Part shown: piece after piece, positions 35,972 to 58,155 of the stretch
Layout: every line of letters begins with the position of its first letter
How positions within the stretch are numbered: the stretch's first letter is position 1
Source of the DNA: an uncultured Flavobacteriales bacterium
Lineage (GTDB): Bacteria; Bacteroidota; Bacteroidia; Flavobacteriales; Flavobacteriaceae
Length of the DNA stretch: 58,349 nt
Assembly: GCA_913058295.1 (NCBI GenBank)
Contig: CAJXRD010000014.1
Coordinates: forward strand, 1-58,349
Direction: 5' to 3'
Notes under the pieces: model-generated
Seen by the model: only the letters and a program-made list of their open reading frames with translations
What the model was told of the DNA's origin: nothing
Databases searched by the model: none
Program-made: the position numbers and the translations under genes

Positions 35972-36095
35972 ACGGTCGCGTTTTTATTTTTTCTGAATTA
36001 AACGAGTTGTTTTATAAAGTTAAATTTCTCATAATTATAGGGCAAACTGTAACATAATTATGAAATTTAGGTCTCTTATGAAACCATCAATCAAA

Positions 36096-38789: not shown

Positions 38790-39444
38790 TATAGATAGTG
38801 TTGATTTCTCCGGCTTTTTTTGTTTTGAAAACTTCTGCAAAAGTTAGATTGTTTTCTGAAGCTATTGCGATTATTTTTTCAATTTGACAATCTTCAGAAA
38901 GAATTATATAGATATTATTTTCTTTGCTTTGAAATTTTGGTAATTGCTGAAATAAATCTTTAAAATACTGAAAATCCTCTCCACAAAACCAAGCCTGTTC
39001 TTTTATGTTTTTTGGTTGTTTAGGATAATAGGGAGGATTAATTATGATATAATCAAATTGTTTTCCTTGTAAGTTTTCAAATAGATTGGAATAGATACAA
39101 GAAACATTTAATTGGTTTTTATCTGAAGCTTTCTCCAAATATGCTAAGGCTGTTTTATTGATATCTGAAGCAGTCACAATTGCACCTTTTTTACTAGCCA
39201 ATAAAGAAATAATTCCACTGCCACAACCCAATTCTAAAAAGGTCTTGTTTTGTAATTCTATTTCAGAAATAAAATCCAATAGTATTTTTGTACTTAAAGT
39301 AAGATGTGGGGGAAACACCTCTGGATGTACTATAACTTCAATATCTTGATATGCATACTTTCTAGGTTTACGATAATAAAACTGCAAGCCAGCATTTAAA
39401 AATGGCTTGGTAAGATGTTTTAGTATGTTTCGAAGTTTTGACAT
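38767..39444 (-). CDS. Class I SAM-dependent methyltransferase with NPPY motif
   Basis: A 225-residue methyltransferase of the HemK/RsmC-like group. Motif I is ELGCGSG (71-77), motif II region TASDINKTAL, and the catalytic Asn-Pro-Pro-Tyr lies at 136-139 (IIINPPYYPKQ), typical for N-methylation of a planar group in protein, RNA or DNA. Its substrate is not identifiable. The gene is convergent with the DUF5916 gene (23-nt overlap) and its 5' flank carries a dispersed inverted repeat (39452-39528). Confidence 0.85.
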   Translation of the reverse strand: MSKLRNILKHLTKPFLNAGLQFYYRKPRKYAYQDIEVIVHPEVFPPHLTLSTKILLDFISEIELQNKTFLELGCGSGIISLLASKKGAIVTASDINKTALAYLEKASDKNQLNVSCIYSNLFENLQGKQFDYIIINPPYYPKQPKNIKEQAWFCGEDFQYFKDLFQQLPKFQSKENNIYIILSEDCQIEKIIAIASENNLTFAEVFKTKKAGEINTIYTIKQSDT

Positions 39445-39451
39445 TATCTAG

Positions 39452-39528
39452 TTTGTCTGTTCGAGCGCAGTCGAGAACTAATTATATGTTAATTACAATG
39501 ACGTCTCGACTGCGCTCGACGAGACAAA
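39452..39528. repeat. Dispersed inverted repeat, copy 1 (TCGAGCGCAGTCGAGA core)
   Basis: Arms of 25 nt at 39452-39476 and 39504-39528 are reverse complements with two mismatches, around a 27-nt spacer. The 16-nt core TCGAGCGCAGTCGAGA is shared exactly with the repeat at 56060-56138. It fills the gap between the methyltransferase and radical SAM genes, and may form a cruciform or RNA hairpin. Confidence 0.88.
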
Positions 39529-39536
39529 TCGTTTCT

Positions 39537-41057
39537 CTATTCAGAATAAAACCCCTGAGTTTCAGGTTGGCGATATTTCCAGATTTTATGCATTGCTTTT
39601 ATTTCATAAGGATATTTATAAAACCCAGTACGATAACGGATCTTAGAAACTCCCCGCAACAAACTCCTCTTAAATCCTTTAATTCTAAAATCGGTTGCAG
39701 TAGGATAATACCCATTAAGAACCGTTTCAAAATTCATAATTTTGTCTACCATTTTTGGCGTTAACCAAGGCGTTAATGGATTTTTACGTAAATCAAAATT
39801 CTCCCAGGCAGGATCTAACCAATCTTCTAGTTTTTCAGGAAAACTAAAACCTGCTTTTTGAATTTGTTCATATAATTCAGACCCTTCTGTAGCAACAGGA
39901 CTATAGAGATAGATGATGATTTCAGCGTTGGGATTAATTTCTTTTATCTCCTTTATAAAATTAATGTCCCATTCAATCTGTGCCATTACTTTTTCAGGAG
40001 TTTCGGCAGGCATTCCTAAAACAAAGGAAAGCTCTGGTATGATTCCAATTGGGTGTAATCGTTTTACAAATTCTTTAATGGTCTCTCCGGTTTGTGTCCC
40101 TCCCTTATTCATCTGTTTCAGGATTTCGTCATTTCCAGTTTCGGCTCCTAAAAAAATCATTTTACAGCCTGCTGTTTTCATCAACTGTAAATCGGCATCA
40201 CTATATTTATTAATAGTATCTATTCTGCCTTCTCCCCACCAAGTTATTCCATCGTTTTTGATCAACTCTGAAAATTCGACGACTCTTTTTCTAGAAGTAA
40301 AAAAATTGTTGTCGTGAAATTCTATGGCTTCAATATTATATTTATTCTTAAAATAAGAAACATCATCATATACAGATTGTGCAGATTTCGCTTTCCAACG
40401 GCCATTATAAATAGGCACTACAGCACAAAAAGAACAAGTGAAAGGACATCCCAAACTGGAATGATAACTAAAGGTATTTCTGCCTAAAAAGGTTTTACTT
40501 AAATAGTTTTCTAAATTATAAAAACTATCTAGATGTTGATAAGGTAAAGACGGAAGTTCGTCTTGTTCTAATAATTGTTCTTTAGCCGTTTTAATAATAA
40601 TCCCTTTTTCATTTTTATAAATGAGGTTTTTAATTTTAAAAATGGAGTCTAGATTATTTTCTTCTAAAGCTTGGATCAAGGAAGGAAAAGCAACATCCCC
40701 AGGACCATTAATGATATAATCTACAAAGGAAGATTCTACACATACTTTAAATTGGTTGGAAGCAAAATAACCTCCCCAAATGGTGATAGCGTCTGGATAC
40801 TGCTCTTTTATTTTTTTAGTAAAAGGAATCGCCTGCCTTAATTGTGGCCCTGGCATGACGGTACTGCAAAAGTATTTAAATTCTCCTGTGTTAAAATAGG
40901 ATTCTATTTTTTGCCATGGATCTGTTTCCAGATTACCATCCACAAAAACAAAATCATAGGTACCATAAATAGATGCGCCCACTTGCAAAATAGAATTAGG
41001 GATTCTATGTTTGCCTTTAGCACTTCGTGGATTAAATATTAGAATTTTATTTTTCAT
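39537..41057 (-). CDS. Cobalamin-binding-type radical SAM protein 1
   Basis: A 506-residue class B-like radical SAM enzyme. Residues 1-135 resemble a B12-binding Rossmann domain (SILQVGASIYGTYDFVFVDG, ITIWGGYFASN) but lack the DxHxxG His, as is common in this class. The radical SAM core carries the cluster motif Cys204-x3-Cys208-x2-Cys211 (GCPFTCSFC), with FLGAETGNDEIL further on. The C-terminal 110 residues are family-specific. It is the last gene of a minus-strand set (flippase, sulfotransferase, FkbM methyltransferase, this) and overlaps the FkbM gene by 4 nt. Chemistry may be C-methylation or another carbon-centred modification of a lipid or sugar; the substrate is unknown. Confidence 0.88.
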   Translation of the reverse strand: MKNKILIFNPRSAKGKHRIPNSILQVGASIYGTYDFVFVDGNLETDPWQKIESYFNTGEFKYFCSTVMPGPQLRQAIPFTKKIKEQYPDAITIWGGYFASNQFKVCVESSFVDYIINGPGDVAFPSLIQALEENNLDSIFKIKNLIYKNEKGIIIKTAKEQLLEQDELPSLPYQHLDSFYNLENYLSKTFLGRNTFSYHSSLGCPFTCSFCAVVPIYNGRWKAKSAQSVYDDVSYFKNKYNIEAIEFHDNNFFTSRKRVVEFSELIKNDGITWWGEGRIDTINKYSDADLQLMKTAGCKMIFLGAETGNDEILKQMNKGGTQTGETIKEFVKRLHPIGIIPELSFVLGMPAETPEKVMAQIEWDINFIKEIKEINPNAEIIIYLYSPVATEGSELYEQIQKAGFSFPEKLEDWLDPAWENFDLRKNPLTPWLTPKMVDKIMNFETVLNGYYPTATDFRIKGFKRSLLRGVSKIRYRTGFYKYPYEIKAMHKIWKYRQPETQGFYSE

Positions 41058-41749
41058 TTATTCTTTACAAAGATATTACCGTGTAATCTATTTATAGGCA
41101 ATTCATTAATAATTGTAATCATTTTTTTTGCACTTACCCATTCCTTTAATTCAAACTTAGGGTTTTCATTAAGATTAAAATTATAATAAGTGTTTGATTT
41201 ATTTAATAAGTCAATAATTTTAATTGTATTTGAAATAAAACCTCCAGTAAATTCAAACTCTATTAATGGGACCTCATAGGTCAAATTAGATAAAATATCC
41301 AATTCATATCCCTCGACATCAATCTTGCAAAAATCTGGAATACCATATTCTTTAATCAATGTATCTAACTTTTTAACTTCTACCTCTTCAACGTTATTCC
41401 ATTCTAAGGAATCATTTTTAAAATAATCAATAAATTCATTTGAAAAGGTTGCGACTTCAATATGGTTTGCAATATTTAGACTCTTTATTTCATCCTTAGG
41501 ACCTACTGCAATAGGCAAATAATTAAAGTTATTATTATCAATGTCATTTAAAAATTTTGAACAACTTGACTGAGGTTCAAAAGCAATTACTTTTGCTCCT
41601 AATGATAATAGCAACTTGCTTTTTCGACCTTTATTTGCTCCAATATCAAAACATACATCATTTTTATTTATAAATTTAGAATAGAATTTTTTATGCAAGT
41701 AGTTGCCAAAAAACATGGTTTTTAAAATTTTAATAATTGAATTGATCAT
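41054..41749 (-). CDS. FkbM-family SAM-dependent methyltransferase
   Basis: A 231-residue FkbM-type methyltransferase, a family that often O-methylates sugars of surface glycans. SAM-binding motif I is CFDIGANKGRKSKLL (from residue 33) with the acidic end of strand 2 in VIAFEPQ (54-60). The family C-terminal signature is DFCKIDVEGYELDIL. It starts 6 nt after the sulfotransferase gene and overlaps the radical SAM gene by 4 nt, so all act in one operon. Confidence 0.87.
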   Translation of the reverse strand: MINSIIKILKTMFFGNYLHKKFYSKFINKNDVCFDIGANKGRKSKLLLSLGAKVIAFEPQSSCSKFLNDIDNNNFNYLPIAVGPKDEIKSLNIANHIEVATFSNEFIDYFKNDSLEWNNVEEVEVKKLDTLIKEYGIPDFCKIDVEGYELDILSNLTYEVPLIEFEFTGGFISNTIKIIDLLNKSNTYYNFNLNENPKFELKEWVSAKKMITIINELPINRLHGNIFVKNK

Positions 41750-41755
41750 ATTTTA

Positions 41756-42517
41756 TTAAAACGTATAAAAATTATTTGACTCCTTAAGTTTTTCTTTAAA
41801 TAGAGAAATTTCAGTTTTTGACAATTCTTTTTTCCAATTTCCATAAATGCCTTTTCGCAATAACTTATTTAGTTGTTTTTTATTAGAATTATTTTTTTTT
41901 CTTTCTTGAAATGATTGCTTCTCAATACTCTTTTTAATATGATCTTCACTTGAACTAACTCCTAGATAAGCCAATATTTTTTTGCATTCTGTCTCTGGGG
42001 AATCAATTAAATCTTCAAATTTAATAAAAAGTATGTTTTCCTTATGATAAGGTAAATAATGATTGTTCCATGAAAGTTTTAACCAAGAATTTAAATTATT
42101 ATTTCCATGTAAGACAGCTTGAATCATTTGACGCTTTTTCTCTTTTTTAGAAACTAACTTATTGTAAGTTTTTTTAAGAACAGGGCTAAGTGTTAAGCCT
42201 TCTTTTATCGCTAATAATTTAGGTAAAAATCTAAAATAGTAAAGTCCAGACACAACCACATCTCTAGGATCACGGAGGATATATATGCGCTTATGAATTG
42301 TTAATGAAGAAGCTTTTTCGAGTTCATTAAAACTATGATGAGATTTATAAACTTGATAATCTGAATATCTATCCGTTCCCTCTTTATAAAGGGCTTTAAT
42401 TCCCTCATACCCCCAATCTCCTTGTAAAGGGCAAGAAACTAATTCAGCTACCAATCTACTAAGCCAAGTAGTTCCACTTTTGGGGTATCCTATAATTATA
42501 ATATTTCTCTTAGCCAT
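41756..42517 (-). CDS. PAPS-dependent sulfotransferase
   Basis: A 253-residue sulfotransferase (Sulfotransfer_1-like) that would move sulfate from PAPS to a hydroxyl or amine. The 5'-phosphosulfate loop is PKSGTTW (12-18) and the 3'-phosphate site is LRDPRDVVVSGLYYF (81-95, Arg82 and Ser90). A His pair in VYKSHHSF (57-63) is at the usual place of the catalytic base. Its start overlaps the flippase-like gene by 8 nt. With the glycan genes around it, a surface polysaccharide or glycolipid acceptor is the likely target. Confidence 0.88.
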   Translation of the reverse strand: MAKRNIIIIGYPKSGTTWLSRLVAELVSCPLQGDWGYEGIKALYKEGTDRYSDYQVYKSHHSFNELEKASSLTIHKRIYILRDPRDVVVSGLYYFRFLPKLLAIKEGLTLSPVLKKTYNKLVSKKEKKRQMIQAVLHGNNNLNSWLKLSWNNHYLPYHKENILFIKFEDLIDSPETECKKILAYLGVSSSEDHIKKSIEKQSFQERKKNNSNKKQLNKLLRKGIYGNWKKELSKTEISLFKEKLKESNNFYTF

Positions 42518-43688
42518 TGTTTTCTTTTTTCCGAATCCATAACCAAAGTATAATTACAATACTCCATTGCCCCAATACTTTTAATAGTAGGGCTCCGGTA
42601 ATATCCCAGTGTTTTATTAAAAAATACCCTCCTATTACCTGAATGAAGATTACAAAAGACGCAAAAAAAGCAATTTTATTTTGTTTGTCTTTTTTATAAT
42701 ATTCATTTACTAACAAGATATGTAAAAATAAAGGAATCATAAACATAAATGCGAATCCGTATTGAAGTAAGGTAAATTCTAAATGATATATTTTAGATAT
42801 TGCAACATACATAATTACCGTTGCTACAATTGCAAAGCCCCAGCCAAAAGCAAAAAATCTTTTTTGTACTTTTTTAATAGCGGAATGACTAGAACGATAG
42901 TAGTTTTTTAAATAGGGTGTAATTGCAAAAGTACTTGCCATTTGTGCCAAAGCTAAAAAACTTAAAAACACTTGGTATCTACTTAAATTAGAAAAGCTAA
43001 AAAAATGAGTGCCATAATAAATATCTATTTTAGATCTAAAGGTACCAACGGCAATTGGAATGAAAAACGGAACAGAACGTTTTAATTCATTTATTTGAAA
43101 TTGAGGCTTTGTTTTTCTAAAACCCTTTAATAATAAAATGGAAAATAGCAAGCACTTAAATCCTTGAGCAATAATCAATGTTTTTATTATCAATTTTAAA
43201 TCGAGAAAATCTATATTGTAAAATATTAGTGCAATTAAAACAATTAAAAAGCTGGATTCAATCCAAATATTAAGGGTATATTTTCTATGATACACGATTA
43301 ATACTTTAAAAGATTGATTAAGAAATTGAAATAGAATAAAAGCAAAAATATACGCCTCTAAGTGATCGAAAATAGGAATAAAAAGAATCAATAATAAACT
43401 TGGGACTAAGAGAATACTCCTTGAAAAAATATTGTTTACCCATTTTTGGTTGATGGTTGAAGGATTTTTGCTAAAAGATTTTAATAAATAATCATTATTC
43501 CCAAAAGATAAAAAAAGCAAGAAAACATTTACCCAAATTAATATTTCGACATACTCCCCCCATAATTCTAGGGAGTGATATTGAATAATAATATAGGAAA
43601 GAATTAATACCGAAAAAGCACTTAATAGTTGACTTACTCCAAAAAGAGAAATGGTTTTTAAGCGGTCAACTATTTTTTTATTATTCAT
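42510..43688 (-). CDS. Polysaccharide flippase-like multi-span membrane protein
   Basis: A 392-residue inner-membrane protein with about 11-12 TM segments, resembling the MOP/Wzx-type oligosaccharide flippases (ISLFGVSQLLSAFSVLIL, KRSVPFFIPIAVGTFRSKID). It is somewhat shorter than typical Wzx (about 420-480). It is first in a four-gene minus-strand set and divergent from the GT87 gene across a 204-nt AT-rich gap. A role in moving a lipid-linked glycan across the membrane is likely from context and topology. Confidence 0.72.
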   Translation of the reverse strand: MNNKKIVDRLKTISLFGVSQLLSAFSVLILSYIIIQYHSLELWGEYVEILIWVNVFLLFLSFGNNDYLLKSFSKNPSTINQKWVNNIFSRSILLVPSLLLILFIPIFDHLEAYIFAFILFQFLNQSFKVLIVYHRKYTLNIWIESSFLIVLIALIFYNIDFLDLKLIIKTLIIAQGFKCLLFSILLLKGFRKTKPQFQINELKRSVPFFIPIAVGTFRSKIDIYYGTHFFSFSNLSRYQVFLSFLALAQMASTFAITPYLKNYYRSSHSAIKKVQKRFFAFGWGFAIVATVIMYVAISKIYHLEFTLLQYGFAFMFMIPLFLHILLVNEYYKKDKQNKIAFFASFVIFIQVIGGYFLIKHWDITGALLLKVLGQWSIVIILWLWIRKKENNG

Positions 43689-43895
43689 TTATTAAAATTA
43701 ATTGAAAAAATTTTATAAATATTTTCAATATTTTTTTAAAAAGGCTAAGATAAATAAGATAAGCAATACTAGATTATAGAAGACTTTGTTTTTTCTATTT
43801 AGATGAATGGCTTTGGTCTTAAAAAAAAATAGAGGTATTAATTTAAGCTAATAGGTGATAATATTTTATTTGTTGAATAATTAATAATAGTTTTG

Positions 43896-45500
43896 ATGAT
43901 GATATCTAAAATATTTCAAAATATAAATTGGAAAACCCTTCTTTATTTTTCTCCAATACTTTTAGTATTCTCTTATTTTTTTTATCAATCCCTTTTTTAT
44001 AATCTACACGATTTTTCGAATAGCTATTTTTCAGCTAGAATGATTCGAGAAGGAGTTTCACCTACTCAATTATTTGATATTTATGAGTTCAATAGTTATA
44101 TCTGGAATTTAGGCTATACAGATGTATTGGTGGATTTTTATTTAAATAGTCCTTTTACCATTAGTTTATTTTATCCCTTGAGTTTTATAGAAAACCCATA
44201 TGTAGCAAAAGCAATTTTTAATTTGATAGGCATTGTTTTGTTTATTTGGAGCCTTTTTGTTTTAATTAAAAAAAAATTTGACGGGAAGTATTCTATTTTA
44301 TTAATCTTACCGATCCTATTTTTCATTCCAATTCGGAATCAAATTTTATTTGGGCAGTCCTATTTTTTAATATTATCATTAGTCATTTTTGGGTTTTTAT
44401 TCATGGAGAATAAAAAAGAAGGAATTGGAGCTAGCTTATTGAGTATTGCGGTTTTGTTAAAAATATTTCCTGTTTTTTATGGAGTCTCCTTATTGTTTAA
44501 TAAAAGTTGGAAGGCTATATTGATTGGAGGCTTATCTCTAATTGTTTTTATCTTGTTTTCCATTTATATTTCGGGATTTTCTATTTGGGAAGCCTATTTT
44601 ACCGAAATAATCCCTAATGCAATACAAAACAATAGCACAGTAGATTTTCGTTATAATGCTCAATCTTTTGATGTTCTCTTAAGAACTCTGTTTATGGAAG
44701 ATTCTTATTATAATCCTAATGCCCTATTTAATAATGAGCGTCTTTATGTTTTATGGAAGTGGCTTTTTAAATCTGTTGTTATTGCCTTTGCAATAGGAGT
44801 AAGTTTTACACAGAAAAATAACCTTTTTAAATTGTTGTCTATTTGGATTGTAGCCCTGTTTTTACTGCAAAGTAGAACCGCAACTTACGCACAAATACTA
44901 TGGGTGCTTCCTGCAATTTGTTTTTGGAAACAAAATACAACGACTACTAAAAAAATAATCTTTCTTTTAATCCTTTTAGTGGTTTGTAATATGCCTGTGT
45001 ATGCATTAAAGCAGTTACCCATATTCTTCAAATTTTCAAGATTATGGCTTACGCTATTATTGGCGATACTATTTTATGGTAGTTTCTCGGTTAAGTTTAA
45101 TTATAAATGGTTATTTATTTCCATTCTGATTTTAACGCCATTTCATTTAAAGGTATTGGAGAAAAATAAATCCATAATTTCTGAATATGTTTTAGCCGAA
45201 AAAGAGCATTTCATTATTTATGACTTTTATGAAAAAGGGGGTTATTTATTTATAAAAGCTCTAGGAAGAAATGGAGACGAAATAGTGAAAACAGATATTT
45301 CAATTTCATCTTTTCAGGAAAATGTTCTGGATATTAAAGGCAATCAAATCTTATTAGATAAAAAGGTTATTTTAGAAGACTATTCTCTAAAGAAAAAACC
45401 TGTGCTAGTTAACGAAACAGAAGTGTATTATTTAACCGATCATCATTCCCGAAGAGGAGCATATACCATAAAAAAAGTGTCTATTGAAAAAGTTCATTAA
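43896..45500 (+). CDS. GT87-like (DUF2029) integral membrane glycosyltransferase
   Basis: A 534-residue polytopic membrane protein with about 10-12 TM segments, resembling GT-C fold family GT87 mannosyltransferases. These use polyprenyl-phosphate sugars at the outer face of the membrane. Visible marks are the N-terminal loop ARMIREGVSPTQLFD, FYLNSPFTISLFYPLSF, FGQSYFLIL and LLKIFPVFYG. Three candidate starts lie in a row (TTG 43893, ATG 43896, ATG 43899); the first ATG is used. The 204-nt upstream gap is AT-rich with no clear feature beyond a TAGTTTTG box at 43888-43895, too close to serve this start. The next gene overlaps by 17 nt. Confidence 0.75.
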   Translation: MMISKIFQNINWKTLLYFSPILLVFSYFFYQSLFYNLHDFSNSYFSARMIREGVSPTQLFDIYEFNSYIWNLGYTDVLVDFYLNSPFTISLFYPLSFIENPYVAKAIFNLIGIVLFIWSLFVLIKKKFDGKYSILLILPILFFIPIRNQILFGQSYFLILSLVIFGFLFMENKKEGIGASLLSIAVLLKIFPVFYGVSLLFNKSWKAILIGGLSLIVFILFSIYISGFSIWEAYFTEIIPNAIQNNSTVDFRYNAQSFDVLLRTLFMEDSYYNPNALFNNERLYVLWKWLFKSVVIAFAIGVSFTQKNNLFKLLSIWIVALFLLQSRTATYAQILWVLPAICFWKQNTTTTKKIIFLLILLVVCNMPVYALKQLPIFFKFSRLWLTLLLAILFYGSFSVKFNYKWLFISILILTPFHLKVLEKNKSIISEYVLAEKEHFIIYDFYEKGGYLFIKALGRNGDEIVKTDISISSFQENVLDIKGNQILLDKKVILEDYSLKKKPVLVNETEVYYLTDHHSRRGAYTIKKVSIEKVH

Positions 45501-46308
45501 ATACTATATTAAAGACTCGATTTTGTTAGGCTTGGAACATATTAAATTATTGGTTTTCCCTAAAAGTATTCCAATTTTGGTATTCACCATGGCAAAAGTA
45601 GGTTCCTTAAGCGTTTATTTTTCTTTAAAAAAATCTACAAAAAGACATCCCATATTTCATATTCATTCTCTAAATGAAGAAGAGGTGAAAGAGGGGATTC
45701 AATTATGTTTTGATAATAAAATATATCCTGGAAGTAAATCCCCCGTTTTTCTAATTAATAAAAAAATTATTAAAAAGAGAAAACCCTATAAAATTATTTG
45801 CTTGTATAGAGACCCAATAGAAAGAAATATTTCCGCATTTTTTGAAGTATTTGAATTGCATACTGGTGAGAAGTCAACAGAATTTACCGGAGATTTTGAA
45901 AAACTGAAACAACTTTATTACGAAAAACTAAATCATACCTTTCCAATTAATTGGTTTGAAAAACAATTTTTTGAAGCAACAGACATTAATATATTCGATT
46001 ATAATTATGATAAAGATAAAGGATATCAAATAATAAAGAAAGAACCTATAGAGGTACTATTAATTAATAGTAATGTAGCCGACCCAATTAAGGAGAAATT
46101 AATCAGGAATTTTTGCGATTTAAAAACCTTTACTTTAAAAAACAGAAATGTCTCTTCAACAAAAGAATATGCTGCTTATTACAAAGAATTTAAAAGTAAT
46201 ATAAAATTCTCTAAAGAATATCTAAACCAACTTTATGACTCTAATTATGCCAAACATTTTTTCTCTGAAAAGCATATAGAAGCCCAAAAACAAAAATGGA
46301 GTGAATAA
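45484..46308 (+). CDS. Putative capsular polysaccharide synthesis / sulfotransferase-fold protein
   Basis: A 274-residue protein. It resembles the putative capsular polysaccharide synthesis family (NKWYS type), which has a sulfotransferase-like fold. FTMAKVGSLSVYFSL (34-48) is at the place of the PAPS loop, followed by HPIFHIHSLNEEEV, a 3'-phosphate-like CLYRDPIERNISAFFE, and FPINWFEKQFFEATDINIF. The start is a TTG at 45484 inside the GT87 gene (17-nt overlap); the first ATG would remove the PAPS-like loop. It is convergent with the GT2 gene. Sulfation of the GT87 product is plausible but inferred. Confidence 0.7.
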   Translation: MKKFIKYYIKDSILLGLEHIKLLVFPKSIPILVFTMAKVGSLSVYFSLKKSTKRHPIFHIHSLNEEEVKEGIQLCFDNKIYPGSKSPVFLINKKIIKKRKPYKIICLYRDPIERNISAFFEVFELHTGEKSTEFTGDFEKLKQLYYEKLNHTFPINWFEKQFFEATDINIFDYNYDKDKGYQIIKKEPIEVLLINSNVADPIKEKLIRNFCDLKTFTLKNRNVSSTKEYAAYYKEFKSNIKFSKEYLNQLYDSNYAKHFFSEKHIEAQKQKWSE

Positions 46309-46321
46309 TAGGGCTTAAATG

Positions 46322-47071
46322 TTATTTATCCAGATTTGAAAACAGTTGGAACCTAAGGCCAAGCTTCTGGAAAAAATATTTCAGAGAAACTCCCAAAACG
46401 CCCAAACCATATTTCACAGATCTTGAAAAATTAATGGAAGAAGAATCTTTTTCATATTTAGCAGGACAGGATATTTCACCAATTTCGATTCCATTATAAC
46501 ACAGTTGTGCTAATAACTGGTTATCAAAAACAAAGTCGTTTGAGTTATTTTGAAAAGGAATACTTTTTAAAATGGCTGCACTAAAGCAACGGTACCCAGT
46601 ATGATATTCAGATAATTTTTGTCCCATCAATATATTTTGAACCAAAGTTAAAACCCGATTCGAAATGTATTTATATAGAGGCATCCCTCCTTTTAATGCA
46701 CTTTTACCTAATATCCTAGAACCCAAAACTACTTTAAAAACATCATTAGCAATTAGAGAACACATCGCTGGAATTAATTTGGGATTGTATTGATAGTCTG
46801 GATGAAGCATCACAATAATATCGGCGTTAATATCCAAGGCTTTTTTATAACAGGACTTTTGATTGGCACCATAGCCCATGTTTTTTGGATGTTCAATAAT
46901 ATGTTTGATTCCTAATTTTTTGGCAACCAAAACGGTATGGTCATTACTAAAATCATCGGTAAGAATAATATCGTCTACAATATCAAAGGGTATTTCTTGA
47001 TAGGTTTTTTCAAGGGTACTTTCTGCATTATATGCAGGAAGAATGACAACTATTTTCTTTTCATTTAACAT
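46322..47071 (-). CDS. GT2-family glycosyltransferase (polyprenyl-phosphate sugar synthase type)
   Basis: A 249-residue family 2 glycosyltransferase. VVILPAYNAESTL starts the GT-A fold. The nucleotide-binding Asp residues are in IILTDDFSNDHT, and HPDYQYNPKLIP and SRILGKSALKGGMPLYK are typical of the dolichol-phosphate mannose synthase-like group. There is no C-terminal TM pair, so it is membrane-associated at most. It could make the polyprenyl-phosphate sugar donor used by the GT87 enzyme. One base separates it from the upstream lipoprotein gene on the same strand. Confidence 0.86.
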   Translation of the reverse strand: MLNEKKIVVILPAYNAESTLEKTYQEIPFDIVDDIILTDDFSNDHTVLVAKKLGIKHIIEHPKNMGYGANQKSCYKKALDINADIIVMLHPDYQYNPKLIPAMCSLIANDVFKVVLGSRILGKSALKGGMPLYKYISNRVLTLVQNILMGQKLSEYHTGYRCFSAAILKSIPFQNNSNDFVFDNQLLAQLCYNGIEIGEISCPAKYEKDSSSINFSRSVKYGLGVLGVSLKYFFQKLGLRFQLFSNLDK

Positions 47072-47072
47072 A

Positions 47073-48188
47073 TTAGTTAATATAATTTACTTCCACTTCA
47101 GACTCTTCTCGAACACTACTGGAAACCTGCAAACCAGAAAAAGGTGCAAAAGACTCGACACTTTCTCGTTCGTATAAATCGCCTAAATAAATGAACTCTT
47201 CATGAATATGTGTTGGTAAACCAGATAATAAACTTTCCACTTCAACAATAGGCATTCCCCACTCCAAACTTAATCTTTCTGCCGAAGGTTCCATAAATGT
47301 AATGTATAATAATTCGGTTAAGGTATGTTGTTGTGTTTCTTCATAATCTACTCCATCAAAGAGAGAGTTTTGTAGGTTTTTATGAGAAGCTTTAAAATCG
47401 ATTAAAATATCTTTAAACTCGAGATAGGGAATAAACCCAGTAAAATTCTCTTGTTCACTAAATAAAGGCTGAATACCCGATTCGTGACACCACATACATT
47501 TTGCAGGCTTCCCTGCATTAGAATGCAAAGGATCTGTATTATTTATACGAATTCCATCTTTATTATAAATACCAAAACGAGGTTGTCCATTGGGCATTAA
47601 TTCAACCGTTTCATATTCTAAGATTTCACTGGTTTCTGGATCTATTTCAGTGCAGAAAAATAACTGGTCAAAATTCTCTTGTTCCGAAAAAGCGACTGTT
47701 CTATGTTCATAAGAAACCCCCGATTGATTAACATATCCTTTTTCAGAATTTAAGTCATAGGTTTCTAATAAGTCCGAAAGTAAAAAAGGGACCCCAGTAA
47801 TTTCATAATAATGTTCAGGAGCACCTAAAAGCAAGCTTACATACCTGCCAATATCGATTGCATTTGTGACTTGGTATTCTTCAGAAGCCATAATAACCTC
47901 ATGTAGTCTATTCAATTTTTGTTGGCTAGTACTATTAAAGCCAAGTTGTTCTAATTTAATTTCTATAGTATTATTTTGAATGGTAATTCCGGTATGTTGA
48001 TATGGTAATGTTGCCCCTAAATATGAAAATGTCCACTGTAGTCCAATAGAAGTTTTTTCTATACTATCTTCTTCATAAGCTTTATTCCATTTTAATAGTA
48101 AGCCTGTTTTTGGCTCCACAATATCATCGTAAGTGGAATTGGTACAAGAAATGATTGTAAATATTAGTAAGAGCAACAGTTTTTTCAT
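47073..48188 (-). CDS. Lipoprotein with a single haem-type CxxCH motif, function unknown
   Basis: A 371-residue predicted lipoprotein from the ATG at 48188. The signal peptide (KKLLLLLIFTIISC) puts the lipidated Cys at 15. An in-frame ATG at 48206 lies inside a dispersed repeat and would push the signal inward, so it is rejected. CMWCH (Cys231, Cys234, His235, in GKPAKCMWCHESGIQPLF) is a c-type haem attachment motif. The remainder is acidic, with no recognised domain; FGIYNKDGIRINNTDPLHSN precedes the motif. It may be a periplasmic or surface cytochrome-like protein. It lies between a radical SAM gene and the GT2 gene on the same strand. Confidence 0.75.
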   Translation of the reverse strand: MKKLLLLLIFTIISCTNSTYDDIVEPKTGLLLKWNKAYEEDSIEKTSIGLQWTFSYLGATLPYQHTGITIQNNTIEIKLEQLGFNSTSQQKLNRLHEVIMASEEYQVTNAIDIGRYVSLLLGAPEHYYEITGVPFLLSDLLETYDLNSEKGYVNQSGVSYEHRTVAFSEQENFDQLFFCTEIDPETSEILEYETVELMPNGQPRFGIYNKDGIRINNTDPLHSNAGKPAKCMWCHESGIQPLFSEQENFTGFIPYLEFKDILIDFKASHKNLQNSLFDGVDYEETQQHTLTELLYITFMEPSAERLSLEWGMPIVEVESLLSGLPTHIHEEFIYLGDLYERESVESFAPFSGLQVSSSVREESEVEVNYIN

Positions 48189-48199
48189 ATTCATTATTG

Positions 48200-48277
48200 T
48201 TGTCATTCAGAGCGTAGCGAAGAATCTTGTTATTATTGATTGAGATTCTTCAGTCGTAAACTCCTTCTGAATGACAA
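48200..48277. repeat. Dispersed inverted repeat (TTGTCATTCAGA ends)
   Basis: The 12-nt ends TTGTCATTCAGA (48200-48211) and TCTGAATGACAA (48266-48277) pair exactly. Inside, GAAGAATCT (48219-48227) pairs with AGATTCTTC (48243-48251). The element fills the gap between the CxxCH lipoprotein and radical SAM 2. It resembles short palindromic repeats seen scattered in Bacteroidetes genomes; no open frame is inside. Confidence 0.82.
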
Positions 48278-48283
48278 GTTATT

Positions 48284-49669
48284 TTATTTACTAATACTCA
48301 TTAATCCAGTGGCTAATAAGGATTTTGTCTTCATTTTTAATGCCTTCAAATTATCTTTATCCTTACCTTTTAAAACCTCTTTATGATAATTAACCTCATT
48401 TACCACTTTCCGAACTGCATAATCGTAATACTTTCTAGAATAGGTTCGTTTAAAGTCAATTTGCCGATCGGTTGAAGTTTCCCAATTGGGTTGAACCGTG
48501 ATGTCTTTTTCAATTTCAGTATATAGTGAAGTTCCTTTTATAGGATAGGCAATGGTAATTGTAAAGTGGGTTGGATTTGCTTTTTTAAGGTAATTAATGG
48601 TTTCTTTTATATCCTTTTCATCTTCTCCAGGATAGCCTAACATAATAAAGGTTCCAGTTTCAATCCCCATAGAATTTGTTTTAATAATAGCATCTTTTAC
48701 CACATTAACATCCACCCGCCGGTCCATGGCATCAATTATTTTTTGAGAACCACTTTCTGCACCTATCCAAATTCGATAACAACCTGCTTCTTTTAAAAGT
48801 TGTAATATTTCATCGTTTAGGCGTTCCGCTCTTGTAATACATTCAAAAGGTATTTTCACACCTTGACTTATTGTTTCTTTATGAAAGTCTTTAATCCATT
48901 TATGACTTACTGTAAAAACATCATCTACAAACCAAATAGAATCTGGTTGGTATTCTTTTTGAAGCAAAGCCAATTCTTCTACTACTAATTTTGCAGGACG
49001 ACGTCTATAACTTTGTCCATAAACTGCGGTACTACACCATTTGCATGTATAAGGACAGCCTCTTTGGGTACTGACCGTCATAGAGCTTTTTCCATGGTTT
49101 TCCTTCCAAACTTTCAGGTATTTATCAATTGCAATACCATCTCGATTTGGTAATGGCAGATTGCTTAGGTCTTTCATTTTTACTCTAGGAGGAGTTTTAA
49201 TTAGAGTGCCATCCTCTAAATAAGCTATTCCTGTAATTTCTGAAACTGCCGTATTTTGAGTAATTGCCTGATAAAGTTCTTTTGTGGTTTCTTCGCCTTC
49301 CCCTATAATTATATAATGAGCACCAGTATTTAAGTAATTTTCAATATTATAAGAAACATCTGGACCGCCTAATATAATTTTTGGAAACCCATATTGGGCA
49401 TCAGAATTCAAAATTTTCACCAATTTAATCACATTGATTTTTGTCATCAAGTTGGTATAAATAGCAACAGTAGAAGGTTTTTTATTTGCAATAAATTCTA
49501 GTTGCTCCTGTGGGTTTGAAAAAGTAGCGTCAAAGAGATAATTTTCTATGTGATTTTCATTTAAATAACTCGAAATATATAATAAGCCTAAAGGAGCATA
49601 GGGCTTCATAATTTTAGCCTCTATGGGATCCTCAAATAGATAGTATGCATGGGTTAGTACGATGCTCAT
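48284..49669 (-). CDS. Cobalamin-binding-type radical SAM protein 2
   Basis: A 461-residue radical SAM protein with an N-terminal B12-binding-like Rossmann domain (residues 1-140: PYAPLGLLYISSYLNENHIE, KIILGGPDVS, HYIIIGEGEET). The cluster motif is Cys205-x3-Cys209-x2-Cys212 (GCPYTCKWC). Downstream blocks AESGSQKIIDAMDRR and MLGYPGEDEKDIKETI are typical. The DxHxxG cobalamin His is absent. It is a clear paralogue of radical SAM 3 at 50.7-52.2 kb: the cluster region and AESGSQKI-DAMD align directly. Intergenic repeats flank both ends. Substrate unknown. Confidence 0.88.
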   Translation of the reverse strand: MSIVLTHAYYLFEDPIEAKIMKPYAPLGLLYISSYLNENHIENYLFDATFSNPQEQLEFIANKKPSTVAIYTNLMTKINVIKLVKILNSDAQYGFPKIILGGPDVSYNIENYLNTGAHYIIIGEGEETTKELYQAITQNTAVSEITGIAYLEDGTLIKTPPRVKMKDLSNLPLPNRDGIAIDKYLKVWKENHGKSSMTVSTQRGCPYTCKWCSTAVYGQSYRRRPAKLVVEELALLQKEYQPDSIWFVDDVFTVSHKWIKDFHKETISQGVKIPFECITRAERLNDEILQLLKEAGCYRIWIGAESGSQKIIDAMDRRVDVNVVKDAIIKTNSMGIETGTFIMLGYPGEDEKDIKETINYLKKANPTHFTITIAYPIKGTSLYTEIEKDITVQPNWETSTDRQIDFKRTYSRKYYDYAVRKVVNEVNYHKEVLKGKDKDNLKALKMKTKSLLATGLMSISK

Positions 49670-49677
49670 TAGATAGG

Positions 49678-49831
49678 ATCACTGATTTTACAGATAAAAC
49701 AGATGTTCACGGATTTTTCAATTCTCATTTTTTAAAAATATAAAATTCTTTCTGTTTCAGCATTATCTAATAATTCTTTTTAACGAATCTTATCTGTGAT
49801 AACCTGTAAAATTCGTGTATTCTGTGTTCTA
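49678..49831. repeat. Dispersed repeat, copy A (ACAGAT...GTTCACGGATT family)
   Basis: An imperfect inverted repeat in the 159-nt gap between radical SAM 2 and a methyltransferase gene. The left arm contains CACTGATTTTACAGATAAAA and GATGTTCACGGATT (49680-49715); the right arm contains TTATCTGTGATAACCTGTAA and TTCTGTGTTCTAT (49790-49832). The arms share words with copy B at 50632-50725 (GATGTTCACGGATT and CTGTGTTCTATT). The stop codon of the methyltransferase (49831-49829) lies in its right end. Confidence 0.75.
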
Positions 49832-50611
49832 TTTTTTCTGAAATACTATTAAATAATGATCAGAATATTTTGCCCAAAATGGATTGGTATATAATTTTTC
49901 AGCCCAGATTAACAATTTTAAAAGTCCTTTTTTCTTTGAAAAAAATGACTCTAAATAGGAGGGGGGAATTTTTAATCCAATGGGTTTAATAGTTATTGTT
50001 TTATAATGGTTCGTTGCTAAAGATACCACTTCTTTAGGGTTGTAATACCAAGTAGGTACTTTTACTCCTTCTACATTCGCAAGAACAGCATCATTTGTAT
50101 TTCGTCTTTTAGCTTTTCTGAATTCTCCTTTTAGTGTAAAGTATAGCCGTTCCCATAAACAGAATTTTGGCATAATAACTAAAGCCATTTTACCCTTTGG
50201 TTTTAATAAAGAGATAGAAACAGAAATAAACTTTTCTAATTCTTGAGGGGACAAGCAATTAAGCCCTCCAAAATTTGAAAAGATCAAATCAAATTTTTCA
50301 GAAAATGTTTCAGAGGTAATTTTAGTAATGTCTTTTTCTTGAAATCTTATACTTGTATTTTGATGTTTTTCTTTGGCGACTTTTATCATTTCCGAAGAAA
50401 TATCTGTGGCCAATACTCGATGCCCTTTTTCAAAAAAATAGCGAGCATCTTCTCCAGTTCCACAATTCAATTCTAAGATGTTGAGCTTGCTATTAGTAAG
50501 AATGCCCTCCTTTAAAAAATGATACACACGTTTCCGCTGCGCTTTTCCTATTTCTGAATAGGTAAAAACTGAATCATAATTTTTGGCGTATTCATCGAAA
50601 TTTTCAGGCAT
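49829..50611 (-). CDS. Class I SAM-dependent methyltransferase in the radical SAM cluster
   Basis: A 260-residue methyltransferase. Motif I is ILELNCGTGEDARYFF (45-60), post-I VLATDISSEMI and motif IV KFDLIFSNFGGLNCL. The profile is of ubiE/small-molecule methyltransferases (Methyltransf_25-like). It is longer at the C-terminus than the minimal fold, with GLKIPPSYLESFFSKKKGLL. It lies between radical SAM 2 and 3 on the same strand; repeats fill the gaps on both sides and supply its stop codon. The acceptor is unknown, but the neighbourhood points to a lipid or glycan. Confidence 0.87.
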   Translation of the reverse strand: MPENFDEYAKNYDSVFTYSEIGKAQRKRVYHFLKEGILTNSKLNILELNCGTGEDARYFFEKGHRVLATDISSEMIKVAKEKHQNTSIRFQEKDITKITSETFSEKFDLIFSNFGGLNCLSPQELEKFISVSISLLKPKGKMALVIMPKFCLWERLYFTLKGEFRKAKRRNTNDAVLANVEGVKVPTWYYNPKEVVSLATNHYKTITIKPIGLKIPPSYLESFFSKKKGLLKLLIWAEKLYTNPFWAKYSDHYLIVFQKK

Positions 50612-50631
50612 TTTTATTAATCTGTTTTTTA

Positions 50632-50725
50632 ATCAGTTGTATCTGTGTGATCTGTGTTCTATTAAATAATTATAAATAGGAACACAGATTTTACTGATTA
50701 TACTGATGTTCACGGATTCTTATTA
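50632..50725. repeat. Dispersed repeat, copy B (ACAGAT...GTTCACGGATT family)
   Basis: The left arm ATCAGTTGTATCTGTGTGAT and CTGTGTTCTATT (50632-50663) pairs imperfectly with the right arm GAACACAGATTTTACTGATT and ATACTGAT (50679-50707). GTTCACGGATTCTTATT follows and continues into the 3' end of radical SAM 3. The last codons of that gene (Asn-Lys-Asn-Pro-stop) are written by the repeat. Confidence 0.75.
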
Positions 50726-52179
50726 GTATGTTCCATATTACTCAATGCCATTTTATCTAGCATCGAACTCGGAAGATAATAAAAATACAAAAGCATCGAT
50801 CTAATTTTTTGAAATGAAATAGAAAAAGGATTCTTAAAAAAACTTTGAAAATTAGCTACTGCCTGACTCTTTCTATATTCTTTATGAACATAGCGATGTA
50901 GTTTTTTATAATATTCAGAATTAAAAGTCCCTTGAAACATCATTGCAAGATCGTCAGAGTCTGTCCAGTTGGCTTTTTCTTTTAAATCGTCTTTTACCAT
51001 CTCATAAAATTTAGTTCCAGGTAAAGGGTAAGAAACAGAGACTCCAATATTATCGGGCTGTAATTCTTTAATCATCCCAACAGTTTTGGAGATGTCCTCT
51101 TTGGTTTCTCCTAAATATCCAAACTGAATAAAAAATGCGACACTAATATTTTTACGTTTTAATATTCTGGTAGCATCATAAATTTGAGATAATTTAGTGC
51201 CTTTATCCATCGCGTCCAATATTTTTTGGGAACCACTTTCAGCTCCCACCCAAACTTCTTTTAATCCACTTTCTGCCAATGCATCAATGGTGTCTTCTTT
51301 CAATAATAAGTCAACTCGACTCTGTATTGTGTATGAAATGGAAAGTTTAGCTTTCTTCAATTCCACATTAAAATTCTGAACCCAATTGGGTTTTAAGCCA
51401 AAAATATCATCACACATCCAAAAATTAGTCACCCCATAATTTTCTTTTAGAAAGCTAATATGTTTGGTGATATATTCTGGAGAATGTGAATTATATCGAA
51501 TGCCATAAATAGGTTTTGCACACCAATTACATTTATAAGGACAACCACGAGTGGTAGCAATATTCAAAGTAAAGTTTCTTCCTCGTTCTGCCCAGACACT
51601 TTTATAGGCATCTATATCCACTAAATCCCAAGCGGGTTGTGGTAATTCGTCTAAATTTCTTAAAACCTCTCTTTTAGGAGTGGTATTAAAATCTTCCTCT
51701 TTTTTATATACGATTCCATTTACTTTTGTAACATCCTCTTTTTTATTAAGAGTTTCTACAAGCGTTTTCAGGGTGAATTCTCCTTCTCCTAAAATGATAA
51801 AATCAGCTCCTGCCTTAAGATATTTTTGATAATGATCGGTACTATCTGAACTATTAACGATTACAGTACAATTATACTTTTTACCCAAAGCTATCATTTC
51901 GAAAGCGGCTTCCCTCATATTGGTTAGGCACATTTTTGTGAGGTAATTAAAACCATCATCATATACCACCAAATACTTGGGTTTTTGCTGTTGAATTTCA
52001 ACTTCAATATCGTAAGGATTATCTCTAAGATTGGTGTCGAAAAGGGAAACAGAATGGCCAGAACTACGCATCAATGAAGCGGCATATATCGTCCCTAATG
52101 GTGGGTAAGGAGTTTTGTTAGCCCATTGTTTTTTGTCTAATGGGTAATAATAAGAATGAGAAAATAAAATATCAAGCAT
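50710..52179 (-). CDS. Cobalamin-binding-type radical SAM protein 3
   Basis: A 489-residue paralogue of radical SAM 2. The N-terminal B12-binding-like domain includes TPYPPLGTIYAASLMRSSGH, VSLFDTNLRDNP (no DxHxxG His) and FIILGEGEFTL. The cluster motif is Cys213-x3-Cys217-x2-Cys220 (GCPYKCNWC), followed by VGAESGSQKILDAMDKG and FGYLGETKEDISKTV. Its start overlaps the nucleotidyltransferase gene by 8 nt, so the two are co-translated. Its extreme C-terminus is encoded by a dispersed repeat. Reaction and substrate are unknown. Confidence 0.88.
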   Translation of the reverse strand: MLDILFSHSYYYPLDKKQWANKTPYPPLGTIYAASLMRSSGHSVSLFDTNLRDNPYDIEVEIQQQKPKYLVVYDDGFNYLTKMCLTNMREAAFEMIALGKKYNCTVIVNSSDSTDHYQKYLKAGADFIILGEGEFTLKTLVETLNKKEDVTKVNGIVYKKEEDFNTTPKREVLRNLDELPQPAWDLVDIDAYKSVWAERGRNFTLNIATTRGCPYKCNWCAKPIYGIRYNSHSPEYITKHISFLKENYGVTNFWMCDDIFGLKPNWVQNFNVELKKAKLSISYTIQSRVDLLLKEDTIDALAESGLKEVWVGAESGSQKILDAMDKGTKLSQIYDATRILKRKNISVAFFIQFGYLGETKEDISKTVGMIKELQPDNIGVSVSYPLPGTKFYEMVKDDLKEKANWTDSDDLAMMFQGTFNSEYYKKLHRYVHKEYRKSQAVANFQSFFKNPFSISFQKIRSMLLYFYYLPSSMLDKMALSNMEHTNKNP

Positions 52180-53101
52180 GTTCTTTCTCTAAATGAATAT
52201 TATGGTTTTCTCGATATTCATCATACTTAATATTTAGGCGTTCAATCACTTTTCTCTGAAAATTTAATGGATGATGTTTAGAAATATTTTTGGTAGATTT
52301 TAAAGCGACATTAAATTGTCTTTCTTCCAATTCACTAAATTTCATTTTCCACTTTTTATAGGTTATTTTTAAAAAAAGTTGATCCAGTTTTTCGCCCAAT
52401 TTAGTGTTGAGAATATTTTCAGTTATACTTGTGAATAATGGTTTTTCAACAGAGTTCATATTTACAAGACCTTCAGAAATAGATTTGTTTGGCAGAAAAC
52501 TATGTACCCAAGTATTTTGTTTATAAAAATCATGAAAACTACCATTGCCATACATAGGCATAAGAGTAACTAATTCGGTAGCAGTAAAACGATTTTTTTC
52601 ATCTATTTCAAGAGAGTTAGCACTGATAAAATAATTGACACAAAAATATTTTTTGGAGTTAAGTAGAAATAGCTTTTTATATAAAATTAAAAAGGTTCTA
52701 GCTACCCATAAACGATTGGGAGAAGTAATTATAAAAAAGTCAATATCCCCATCATCATCATAATACCCTTTTGATAGGGATCCAGAAATTCCAACACCTT
52801 CAACATAAGGGAATTTTGAAATAAACTTGGAAACCTTATCTGCTTTTGTGTTAATATCCTCAGCCATTTTATTGCCGGCAAGTCTTCTTTTGATAAGACT
52901 TTTGTCGTTTTCACAAAGGTAAAACCCATCGATATTAAAAATCACTTTGTCCTCTACTAAACGGTCTAATTCTTTCTTAACTTGATCTTTTGATTCAGTT
53001 TCAGAGAAGTCAAAGACCTCCTCTTCGGTTAAAGGATACCGAAATAAAGAAAAATATAAAAGTGGTTTTAAAAGTTTCAAAGTTATTTTTCTTAATTGCA
53101 A
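52172..53101 (-). CDS. Winged-helix plus nucleotidyltransferase-fold protein
   Basis: A 309-residue protein with two parts. Residues 1-62 look like a winged helix (FSLFRYPLTEEEVFDFSET, VEDKVIFNIDGFYLCEN). Residues 95-220 hold a minimal nucleotidyltransferase motif, Gly107-Ser108 (GVGISGSLSKGYYDDDGD) with Asp119 and Asp121 (DGDIDFFII). The carboxylates are intact, so nucleotide transfer is possible. It is first in the minus-strand set of radical SAM 3, methyltransferase, radical SAM 2 and beyond, overlapping radical SAM 3 by 8 nt. It may activate or tag the substrate of the neighbouring enzymes; that role is inferred. Confidence 0.78.
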   Translation of the reverse strand: MQLRKITLKLLKPLLYFSLFRYPLTEEEVFDFSETESKDQVKKELDRLVEDKVIFNIDGFYLCENDKSLIKRRLAGNKMAEDINTKADKVSKFISKFPYVEGVGISGSLSKGYYDDDGDIDFFIITSPNRLWVARTFLILYKKLFLLNSKKYFCVNYFISANSLEIDEKNRFTATELVTLMPMYGNGSFHDFYKQNTWVHSFLPNKSISEGLVNMNSVEKPLFTSITENILNTKLGEKLDQLFLKITYKKWKMKFSELEERQFNVALKSTKNISKHHPLNFQRKVIERLNIKYDEYRENHNIHLEKEHA

Positions 53102-53187
53102 TTATTGTTAGTCGGAAAATTATATTAAAGAATACAAAATAAGTATTATTATTTATAAATCATGTTGCACTTGTTATAAGTTATTCA

Positions 53188-56233: not shown

Positions 56234-57184
56234 ATGAACACATTTTCAATAGCTATTCACGGAGGTGCAGGGACACTTGTAAAAGGAATGATGACTCCTG
56301 AAAAAGAAGTTGCATACAAAGAAGCATTACAAATTGCACTAGATAGCGGCTATTCTATTTTAGAAAAAGGAGGAAATGCAGTGGATGCTGTAGAAGTTGC
56401 AGTAAAAGTATTGGAAGATTCTCCATTGTTTAATGCAGGAAAAGGAGCTGTTTTTACAGCTACTGAAACCCATGAAATGGACGCTTCTATTATGGATGGG
56501 AAAACATTGGAAGCAGGAGCAGTTTCCTTAATTACTGGAATAAAAAACCCCGTATCACTTGCTAGGGATGTAATGGAGAAAAGTGAACATGTTTTTTTAG
56601 CTGGTGAAGGTGCCATGCAATTTGCAAAAACAAATAATTATACATTGGAAAATCCTGATTATTTTTATGACGAATTACGTCATCAACAATGGTTAGATAT
56701 AAAAGATACTGACAATTTTCAGTTGGATCATGCAGCTACTTCGACCAAGCTCAGTAACCAAAAAGATTCTAAATTTGGAACTGTTGGAGCAGTAGCTTGT
56801 GATAAAAATGGAAATATTGCTGCAGCTACTTCTACAGGGGGAATGACTAACAAACGATATGGTAGAGTAGGAGATAGCCCTATGATTGGTGCAGGAAATT
56901 ATGCAAATAATAAAACATGTGCTATAAGTTGTACAGGTAGTGGGGAGTTTTTTATACGAGGAGTAGTCGCTTATGATGTTTCATGCTTAATGGAATATAA
57001 AGGACTTTCTGTAGAGGAAGCAGCTATAGAGGTAATCCAAAAAAGAATTTTAGAAATTGGTGGTGATGGTGGTTTAATTGCGGTAGATACTCAAGGAAAT
57101 ATAGCTATGCCTTTTAATACCGAAGGAATGTACCGAGGATCTAAAAACTCTAAGGGTTTCAATGAAGTTTCTATTTATAAATAA
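56234..57184 (+). CDS. iaaA: Isoaspartyl peptidase / plant-type asparaginase (Ntn hydrolase)
   Basis: A 316-residue proenzyme of the Ntn-hydrolase asparaginase family that cleaves itself before the catalytic Thr183 (KFGTVGAVACD). The substrate-binding Arg211 and Asp214 (GRVGDSPMIGAG) and the oxyanion Thr-Gly-Gly (STGGMTNK) are present, and the N-terminus is AIHGGAGTL. It hydrolyses beta-aspartyl dipeptides. The next gene, cyanophycinase, makes beta-Asp-Arg dipeptides, so the pair fits a degradation pathway. The two genes are convergent and their stop codons abut. No signal peptide is seen, so it acts in the cytoplasm. Confidence 0.9.
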   Translation: MNTFSIAIHGGAGTLVKGMMTPEKEVAYKEALQIALDSGYSILEKGGNAVDAVEVAVKVLEDSPLFNAGKGAVFTATETHEMDASIMDGKTLEAGAVSLITGIKNPVSLARDVMEKSEHVFLAGEGAMQFAKTNNYTLENPDYFYDELRHQQWLDIKDTDNFQLDHAATSTKLSNQKDSKFGTVGAVACDKNGNIAAATSTGGMTNKRYGRVGDSPMIGAGNYANNKTCAISCTGSGEFFIRGVVAYDVSCLMEYKGLSVEEAAIEVIQKRILEIGGDGGLIAVDTQGNIAMPFNTEGMYRGSKNSKGFNEVSIYK

Positions 57185-58042: not shown

Positions 58043-58155
58043 GCTAAGATTTTTTCTCCGGCAAAAATAAACTAATTTTTTTACTGAAAAATGTATATAT
58101 TTATAAACTTTCACTAGAATTAAAACTAAGTACCCGCTTTCTCGGGATATATATT

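Follow-up and report, generated by a model that had tools for sequence, protein, structure and literature searches.

A conserved nucleotidyltransferase–radical SAM cassette in Bacteroidota and its candidate role in glycan modification

The window analysed here, contig CAJXRD010000014.1, is a stretch of 58,349 nucleotides (nt) from an uncultured Flavobacteriales bacterium. We are interested in a block of genes which an earlier, sequence-only reading had taken to be one pathway, building and exporting a methylated, sulfated glycolipid or surface glycan. All twelve open reading frames (ORFs) named in that reading were found, at 39537-53101, and the block reaches further left than 39537, to a second methyltransferase gene (MTS) that also stands beside the third radical SAM gene in other loci (Table 1). 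Read from its first gene, the block holds a nucleotidyltransferase (NTase), a radical SAM protein (rSAM_B), a class I methyltransferase (MT50) and another radical SAM protein (rSAM_A), followed by the genes that we call cargo and, beyond these, by rSAM_C and MTS. NTase, rSAM_B and MT50 form the core, to which rSAM_A, and rSAM_C with MTS, are optional additions. It is this combination of nucleotidyltransferase, radical SAM and methyltransferase, and not the full gene list of the sequence-only reading, that forms the constant part of the block.

Since that reading had held that scattered homologues would count against a single pathway, we examine where the homologues lie. Profiles of NTase, rSAM_B and rSAM_C were searched in the same 395 Bacteroidota genomes, and those of rSAM_A and of a cargo lipoprotein with a CxxCH motif in 149 family genomes. 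The limits (E<=1e-120 for rSAM_B and rSAM_C, E<=1e-100 for rSAM_A) were set by us to exclude paralogues, and the best first-look candidates were scored in each genome (at most five for NTase, four for rSAM_B and three for rSAM_C), so that orthologues could be missed. The NTase profile is found in 30 of the 395 genomes. Orthologues of rSAM_B occur in 26, every one of them among those 30; rSAM_C occurs in 17, all among the 26 that have both rSAM_B and NTase, on the same contig as NTase and within about 18 kb of it. Among the family genomes, NTase is present in 10 and rSAM_A in 7, each of which also has NTase, with the two genes at one locus. At the thresholds used, we found no orthologue of rSAM_B, of rSAM_C or, within the family, of rSAM_A away from an NTase locus. 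The corresponding hypergeometric figures are 8e-37, 1e-23 and 4e-10, which ignore relatedness and hence are not true probabilities. The homologues are thus nested at NTase loci and not scattered, so that this test does not refute a single pathway: the cassette is a conserved unit and not a chance assembly. Named carriers in these data include Winogradskyella litoriviva KMM6491, W. echinorum KCTC 22026, which has rSAM_C in its locus, and Mangrovimonas sp. TPBH4.

Four of the NTase genomes have no rSAM_B match. In one (G219) there is a diverged core of NTase, rSAM_B, rSAM_A and methyltransferase, whose rSAM_B falls under the score limits, and in two (G267 and G525) NTase is fused to a GT4 glycosyltransferase, with no radical SAM match in the stretch read. 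The fourth, G166, carries a decayed copy of the core (L079:1424-3767), in which pieces of NTase, rSAM_B and methyltransferase are interrupted by stops.

The order of the genes was read in 55 loci (26 + 29), or 52 after removal of three duplicates or near-duplicates. An NTase ORF was called in 48 of these, which form the sample below; L073, L078, L079 and L080, in which none was called at the limit used, lie outside it. Several loci are short or end at 20 kb, and the ORF caller lost true genes (in L058 and L073) to longer frames on the wrong strand. In 42 of the 48 loci NTase and rSAM_B are directly adjacent on one strand, and in 23 they overlap by exactly 8 nt, as in the window. Of the six remaining loci, three have the two genes on opposite strands (L057, L059, L063), one has them about 6.7 kb apart with rSAM_B in the other direction (L062), and one owes its place to an rSAM_B missed by the ORF caller (L058). 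The last, in genome G431, is divided: a scaffold gap of 100 N (L068:9656-9755) cuts NTase, and the core, including the rSAM_B beside the NTase tail, lies on a separate 9.1-kb contig (L081) that starts inside NTase. The core methyltransferase is labelled in 42/48 loci, rSAM_A in at least 21 and rSAM_C in at least 18, these last two counts being low bounds because loci end early. Loci of the window's family mostly run NTase–rSAM_B–MT50–rSAM_A, then cargo, with rSAM_C beyond (L027, L032, L033, L043, L045), and the MTS label adjoins rSAM_C in L033, L055, L068, L075 and L076.

Two kinds of natural fusion support joint function. At one locus (L070), rSAM_B and a class I methyltransferase form a single fused protein. 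At three others (L077, L078, L080) a GT4 glycosyltransferase has NTase as its C-terminal half; the L077 fusion sits inside a locus that has both rSAM_B and rSAM_C. The GT4–NTase fusion is also the most direct tie of the cassette to glycan genes.

A broader tie appears when the surrounding genes are labelled by transfer from a few annotated queries at E<=1e-6, a procedure that misses genes (a sulfotransferase in L062, a GT2 in L057). Of the 229 non-core genes in the eight positions downstream of NTase, 78 bear a glycan label, compared with 14 of the 322 in the eight positions upstream. In these counts the label ‘WZX/flip’ pools two membrane families not shown to be related, and the ABC label, which also falls on upstream genes, was kept in the control. 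In the cargo that was scanned, Pfam identifies GT2, GT4, GT9, GT87 and PMT_2 enzymes, heptose synthesis, ABC exporters, sulfotransferases, a deacetylase and a weak match to AlgX. The block thus shares with O-antigen or capsule-type loci a variable glycosyltransferase cargo, candidate membrane carriers, a sulfotransferase and an FkbM protein, but it differs from them in its constant NTase and radical SAM head. Moreover, among 13 block genes (two of them without any match) Pfam found no polymerase (Wzy), chain-length regulator (Wzz) or initiating sugar-phosphate transferase, and the block does not qualify as a Wzx/Wzy-type surface polysaccharide locus.

Because of the nested co-occurrence, the conserved order, the two kinds of fusion and the concentration of glycan labels downstream, the evidence supports a single system that joins the core to its glycan tie. 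That the block as a whole is one biosynthetic system, in which a conserved core precedes exchangeable genes for glycan building and export, we regard as a proposition on which the balance is about even.

Several observations weigh against it. In 25 of the 48 loci the run of genes that begins at NTase, all on its strand, carries no glycan label, which also counts against the single pathway of the sequence-only reading. Part of this number arises because loci end early (L021, L030, L069), because the operon is on the opposite strand (L057, L058, L059, L063), or because the labelling misses genes, as with the GT2 of L057, which lies there. In L060, L061, L064, L070, L072 and L074 no downstream glycan label is present in the stretch read, where most genes were left unscanned. 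The shortest loci (L022, L025, L028) consist of NTase, rSAM_B and methyltransferase only, and the GT4–NTase fusions of L078 and L080 occur without a radical SAM match in the stretch read. The B12-binding domain PF02310 stays below its cut-off in rSAM_B (24.1 bits) and rSAM_C (20.1 bits). Finally, pairwise distances are correlated between NTase and rSAM_B (r 0.79, 43 loci), rSAM_B and rSAM_C (0.87, 11 loci) and rSAM_B and rSAM_A (0.96, 18 loci), but for the control gene polA the values are 0.55 against rSAM_B (8 loci) and 0.76 against NTase (11 loci); since the latter value is so high, much of the correlation between NTase and rSAM_B may reflect the species tree.

In the tree of rSAM_B the window's family (f1) and families f17, f47 and f27 are each gathered on a single branch with full support, f15 is on a branch with support 94/88, and f4, f3, f31 and f35 are split. 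Both loss and horizontal transfer of the cassette are possible. In a search of plasmids we found no NTase match at E<=1e-3 and no rSAM_B match at 1e-60; at 1e-20, rSAM_B matches 13 plasmid records with 23-30% identity, which are annotated as radical SAM, as BchE or not at all.

Table 1. Genes of the block, by position in the window; the amidohydrolase in the last row is a recurrent gene of other loci, with its positions there.
Gene	Location	Strand	Product and place	Basis
NTase	52172..53101	-	N-terminal winged helix and polymerase-beta-type nucleotidyltransferase; first core gene	NTP_transf_2
rSAM_B	50710..52179	-	radical SAM, B12-binding-like N-terminus; core	Pfam Radical_SAM
MT50	49829..50611	-	class I SAM methyltransferase; core	Pfam Methyltransf_25
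rSAM_A	48284..49669	-	radical SAM and B12-binding domain, distant rSAM_B paralogue	Pfam
CxxCH lipoprotein	47073..48206	-	cargo	motif alignment; no Pfam or NCBIfam match
GT2	46322..47071	-	polyprenyl-phosphate sugar synthase kind; cargo	Pfam Glycos_transf_2
NKWYS protein	45484..46308	+	cargo	Pfam NKWYS (putative capsule synthesis)
GT87	43893..45500	+	membrane glycosyltransferase; cargo	Pfam GT87
membrane protein	42510..43688	-	multi-pass, possible flippase; cargo	ten hydrophobic segments
sulfotransferase	41756..42517	-	cargo	Pfam Sulfotransfer_1, 104.7 bits
FkbM	41054..41749	-	FkbM-type methyltransferase; cargo	Pfam Methyltransf_21; NCBIfam fkbM_fam above cut-off
rSAM_C	39537..41057	-	third radical SAM; far end of cargo	Pfam Radical_SAM
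MTS	38767..39444	-	second class I methyltransferase; adjoins rSAM_C	Pfam MTS
amidohydrolase	L066:16797-18684; also L029, L053, L054, L056, L058, L059, L063, L067, L077			recurrence near core

The sequence-only reading had described overlaps of 4-17 nt between neighbours and, from these, co-expressed sets. Four junctions do overlap (by 8, 17, 8 and 4 nt), and at two further junctions the genes lie 1 and 6 nt apart, but others are separated by 77-159 nt; because of these gaps, and because the GT87 and NKWYS genes are on the opposite strand, the block is not a single operon. Promoter-like counts (70, compared with 77.0 in shuffles) and terminator-like counts (4, compared with 6.8) show no excess, and the limits of the operons are therefore drawn from spacing and strand alone. 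A scan of 36000-54000 with Rfam gave nothing at gathering score. The G+C content of the block is 0.303, that of the left flank 0.319 and that of the right flank 0.351, and no clear island is seen. To the right of the block lies a convergent pair of genes, 56234-57184 and 57185-58114, both of which recur upstream of polA in L030, L032 and L038 and which resemble an isoaspartyl peptidase/asparaginase and a cyanophycinase.

The block holds 3 of the 14 Radical_SAM matches in the whole genome. The domain scores above the curated Pfam cut-off in all three proteins, and the cysteines of the CxxxCxxC motif are invariant (C213/C217/C220 in rSAM_B, C205/C209/C212 in rSAM_A, C204/C208/C211 in rSAM_C). 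The description of all three as B12-type holds less evenly: PF02310 (cut-off 32.1 bits) is exceeded by rSAM_A alone, with 41.6 bits. These enzymes likely use B12. The genome also encodes the methionine synthase MetH, as two adjacent frames (G000:C52:10289-13838), and cobalamin is therefore used in the cell. As paralogues, rSAM_A and rSAM_B stand far apart (29.6% identity over 453 columns), and rSAM_C is more distant still, at 26-27% identity to either over about 290 columns. Class B radical SAM enzymes (BchE, HpnJ, PhpK, AprD4, OxsB, TokK, CysS) share with them an N-terminal B12-binding-like domain followed by the radical SAM domain, and the block's proteins resemble in sequence both these families and the solved structures 9ccb, 6fd2, 5ul2, 9n1b and 7kdx. 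They differ from the class B families in their obligate NTase partner and in their scores: among the 25 NCBIfam families listed for each protein, none reaches its curated cut-off, the best scores being 147.8 bits for BchE (cut-off 481), 129.2 for HpnJ (577.6), 154.4 for PhpK (600), 128.0 for the ladderane family (360) and 78.2 for AprD4 (500), all far too low for equivalog membership.

Further genes recur around the radical SAM proteins. In 7/48 loci the labels include a further radical SAM protein, one with a SPASM domain (L057:4875-5930; L027, L042, L058, L059, L067, L068), which brings the number of such proteins in some loci above three. Near 10 of the 48 cores there is an amidohydrolase of the aminofutalosine/guanine-deaminase type, in most cases forming a pair with a methyltransferase, and in six loci (L022:3959-5757; L025, L028, L044, L046, L052) a purine-nucleoside-phosphorylase-like gene and a GT2 gene lie convergent to the core. 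The amidohydrolase and the phosphorylase-like gene might clear the 5'-deoxyadenosine and S-adenosylhomocysteine left by these SAM-dependent enzymes.

For NTase, the assignment as a winged-helix nucleotidyltransferase stands. The protein scores 21.2 bits with NTP_transf_2 (cut-off 21); of 27 aligned members, 19 have a match to this domain at E<=0.01, some of them with scores under the cut-off. In the AlphaFold model (mean predicted local distance difference test score, pLDDT, 87.9) the order of helices and strands fits a winged helix. Four residues (D119, D121, C154, N156) are invariant in all 27 sequences, the last two forming a CxN pair on what the model indicates to be the third core strand. 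In relatives that strand bears the third catalytic acid. Should N156 occupy the place of that acid, the acceptor may need no general base, as would be the case, for example, with a phosphate. The GS...DxD motif and weak fold matches are shared with polymerase-beta-type nucleotidyltransferases such as the MNT antitoxins and the aminoglycoside nucleotidyltransferases; unlike these, NTase has an extra N-terminal winged helix, a C-terminal helical part, the invariant CxN and, in some genomes, the fusion to GT4.

The cargo is exchangeable. Among the 48 loci, GT87 is labelled in 9, the CxxCH lipoprotein in 7, the sulfotransferase in 3 and the NKWYS and FkbM genes in 2 each, so that sulfation, with a sulfotransferase in three loci and in L062, falls outside the common theme; a sulfated product fits at most the window's genome and a few others, and not the system in general. 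Pfam bears out the FkbM, class I methyltransferase, GT87 and GT2 genes of the sequence-only reading, but only one of its two sulfotransferase-fold proteins, the other being the NKWYS protein, for which such a fold is presumed. Its flippase-like protein is, given the ten hydrophobic segments, likely a multi-pass membrane protein; Pfam and NCBIfam give no match, and a flippase function is conjectural. The nearest NCBIfam models to the GT2 are AglJ and PpgS, both below cut-off. The CxxCH motif, which carries covalent heme in monoheme c-type cytochromes, is invariant in 8/8 aligned lipoproteins, which occur in 2 of the 149 family genomes, both times at the locus; the AlphaFold model (mean pLDDT 51) is unusable.

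It is important to weigh the single system against other explanations of the same locus. The core might make a separate small molecule or membrane lipid, with the glycan genes its neighbours only through a shared variable region. We consider this possible but unlikely: the short loci of NTase, rSAM_B and methyltransferase and those without downstream glycan labels agree with it, as does the fact that rSAM_A and rSAM_B count HpnJ, BchE and the ladderane lipid protein among their known relatives with the highest scores, whereas the GT4–NTase fusions, the downstream enrichment of glycan labels, and the position of rSAM_C and its methyltransferase beyond the cargo, not beside the core, in several loci all argue against it.

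The structure 6fd2 (apramycin biosynthetic oxidoreductase 4, AprD4) is within the five nearest solved structures for each of the three radical SAM proteins, and the NTase model has aminoglycoside nucleotidyltransferases among its Foldseek matches, which might point to an aminoglycoside-like or other specialised metabolite, with NTase as a self-protection or tailoring enzyme. Yet the Foldseek matches are weak, none reaching E<=0.001, the AprD4 model gives 75.8 bits for rSAM_A, 78.2 for rSAM_B and 50.4 for rSAM_C where the cut-off is 500, and the part of the cargo that was scanned contains no aminocyclitol or aminotransferase family; we regard such a product as improbable. Even less probable is a core that modifies RNA. 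In L071 the core has a TadA-like deaminase as its neighbour (57.6 bits, cut-off 150), and this, with the HemK/RsmC-like scores of MTS, would suit an RNA-modifying set of nucleotidyltransferase, radical SAM and methyltransferases, but the patchy spread of the cassette (30/395), its glycan cargo and the GT4–NTase fusion do not.

Under the reading of one core and its glycan genes, the cassette probably modifies a cell-surface sugar in a chemically unusual way. Since NTase is fused to GT4 in some genomes, glycosyl transfer is indicated; NTase would work with a GT4- or GT2-type transferase and nucleotidylate or activate a sugar, which may be lipid-linked. By means of a 5'-deoxyadenosyl radical and probably methylcobalamin, rSAM_B and rSAM_A would act on one of the sugar's unactivated carbons, with C-methylation as our first choice of outcome and deoxygenation or rearrangement as possible ones. 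MT50 would add an O- or N-methyl group in the same series, rSAM_C and MTS would act late, and a membrane carrier or ABC exporter would move the product out. It would be extended by GT87 or PMT enzymes that draw on polyprenyl-phosphate sugars, and in the window's genome the sulfotransferase and the FkbM enzyme would decorate it further. A C- or O-methylated and exported product, as the sequence-only reading had it, is what the protein families suggest. The fuller proposal, of a new glycan modification in which NTase transfers a nucleotidyl group to a lipid-linked sugar, two or three radical SAM enzymes in succession methylate or remodel unactivated sugar carbons, and these enzymes stay together as a constant head while the glycan genes behind them are swapped, is a tentative one which we hold to be rather doubtful in all its parts together.

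In a full-text search of openly licensed papers we found no description of this gene combination; the parts belong to known families, and their fixed combination is, to our knowledge, undescribed. Enzymes of this radical SAM type form bonds that are otherwise difficult to make, and we know of few that act on surface glycans. The NTase–radical SAM pair, nearly always together across many Bacteroidota families, would thus offer a defined gene set for glycan modification.

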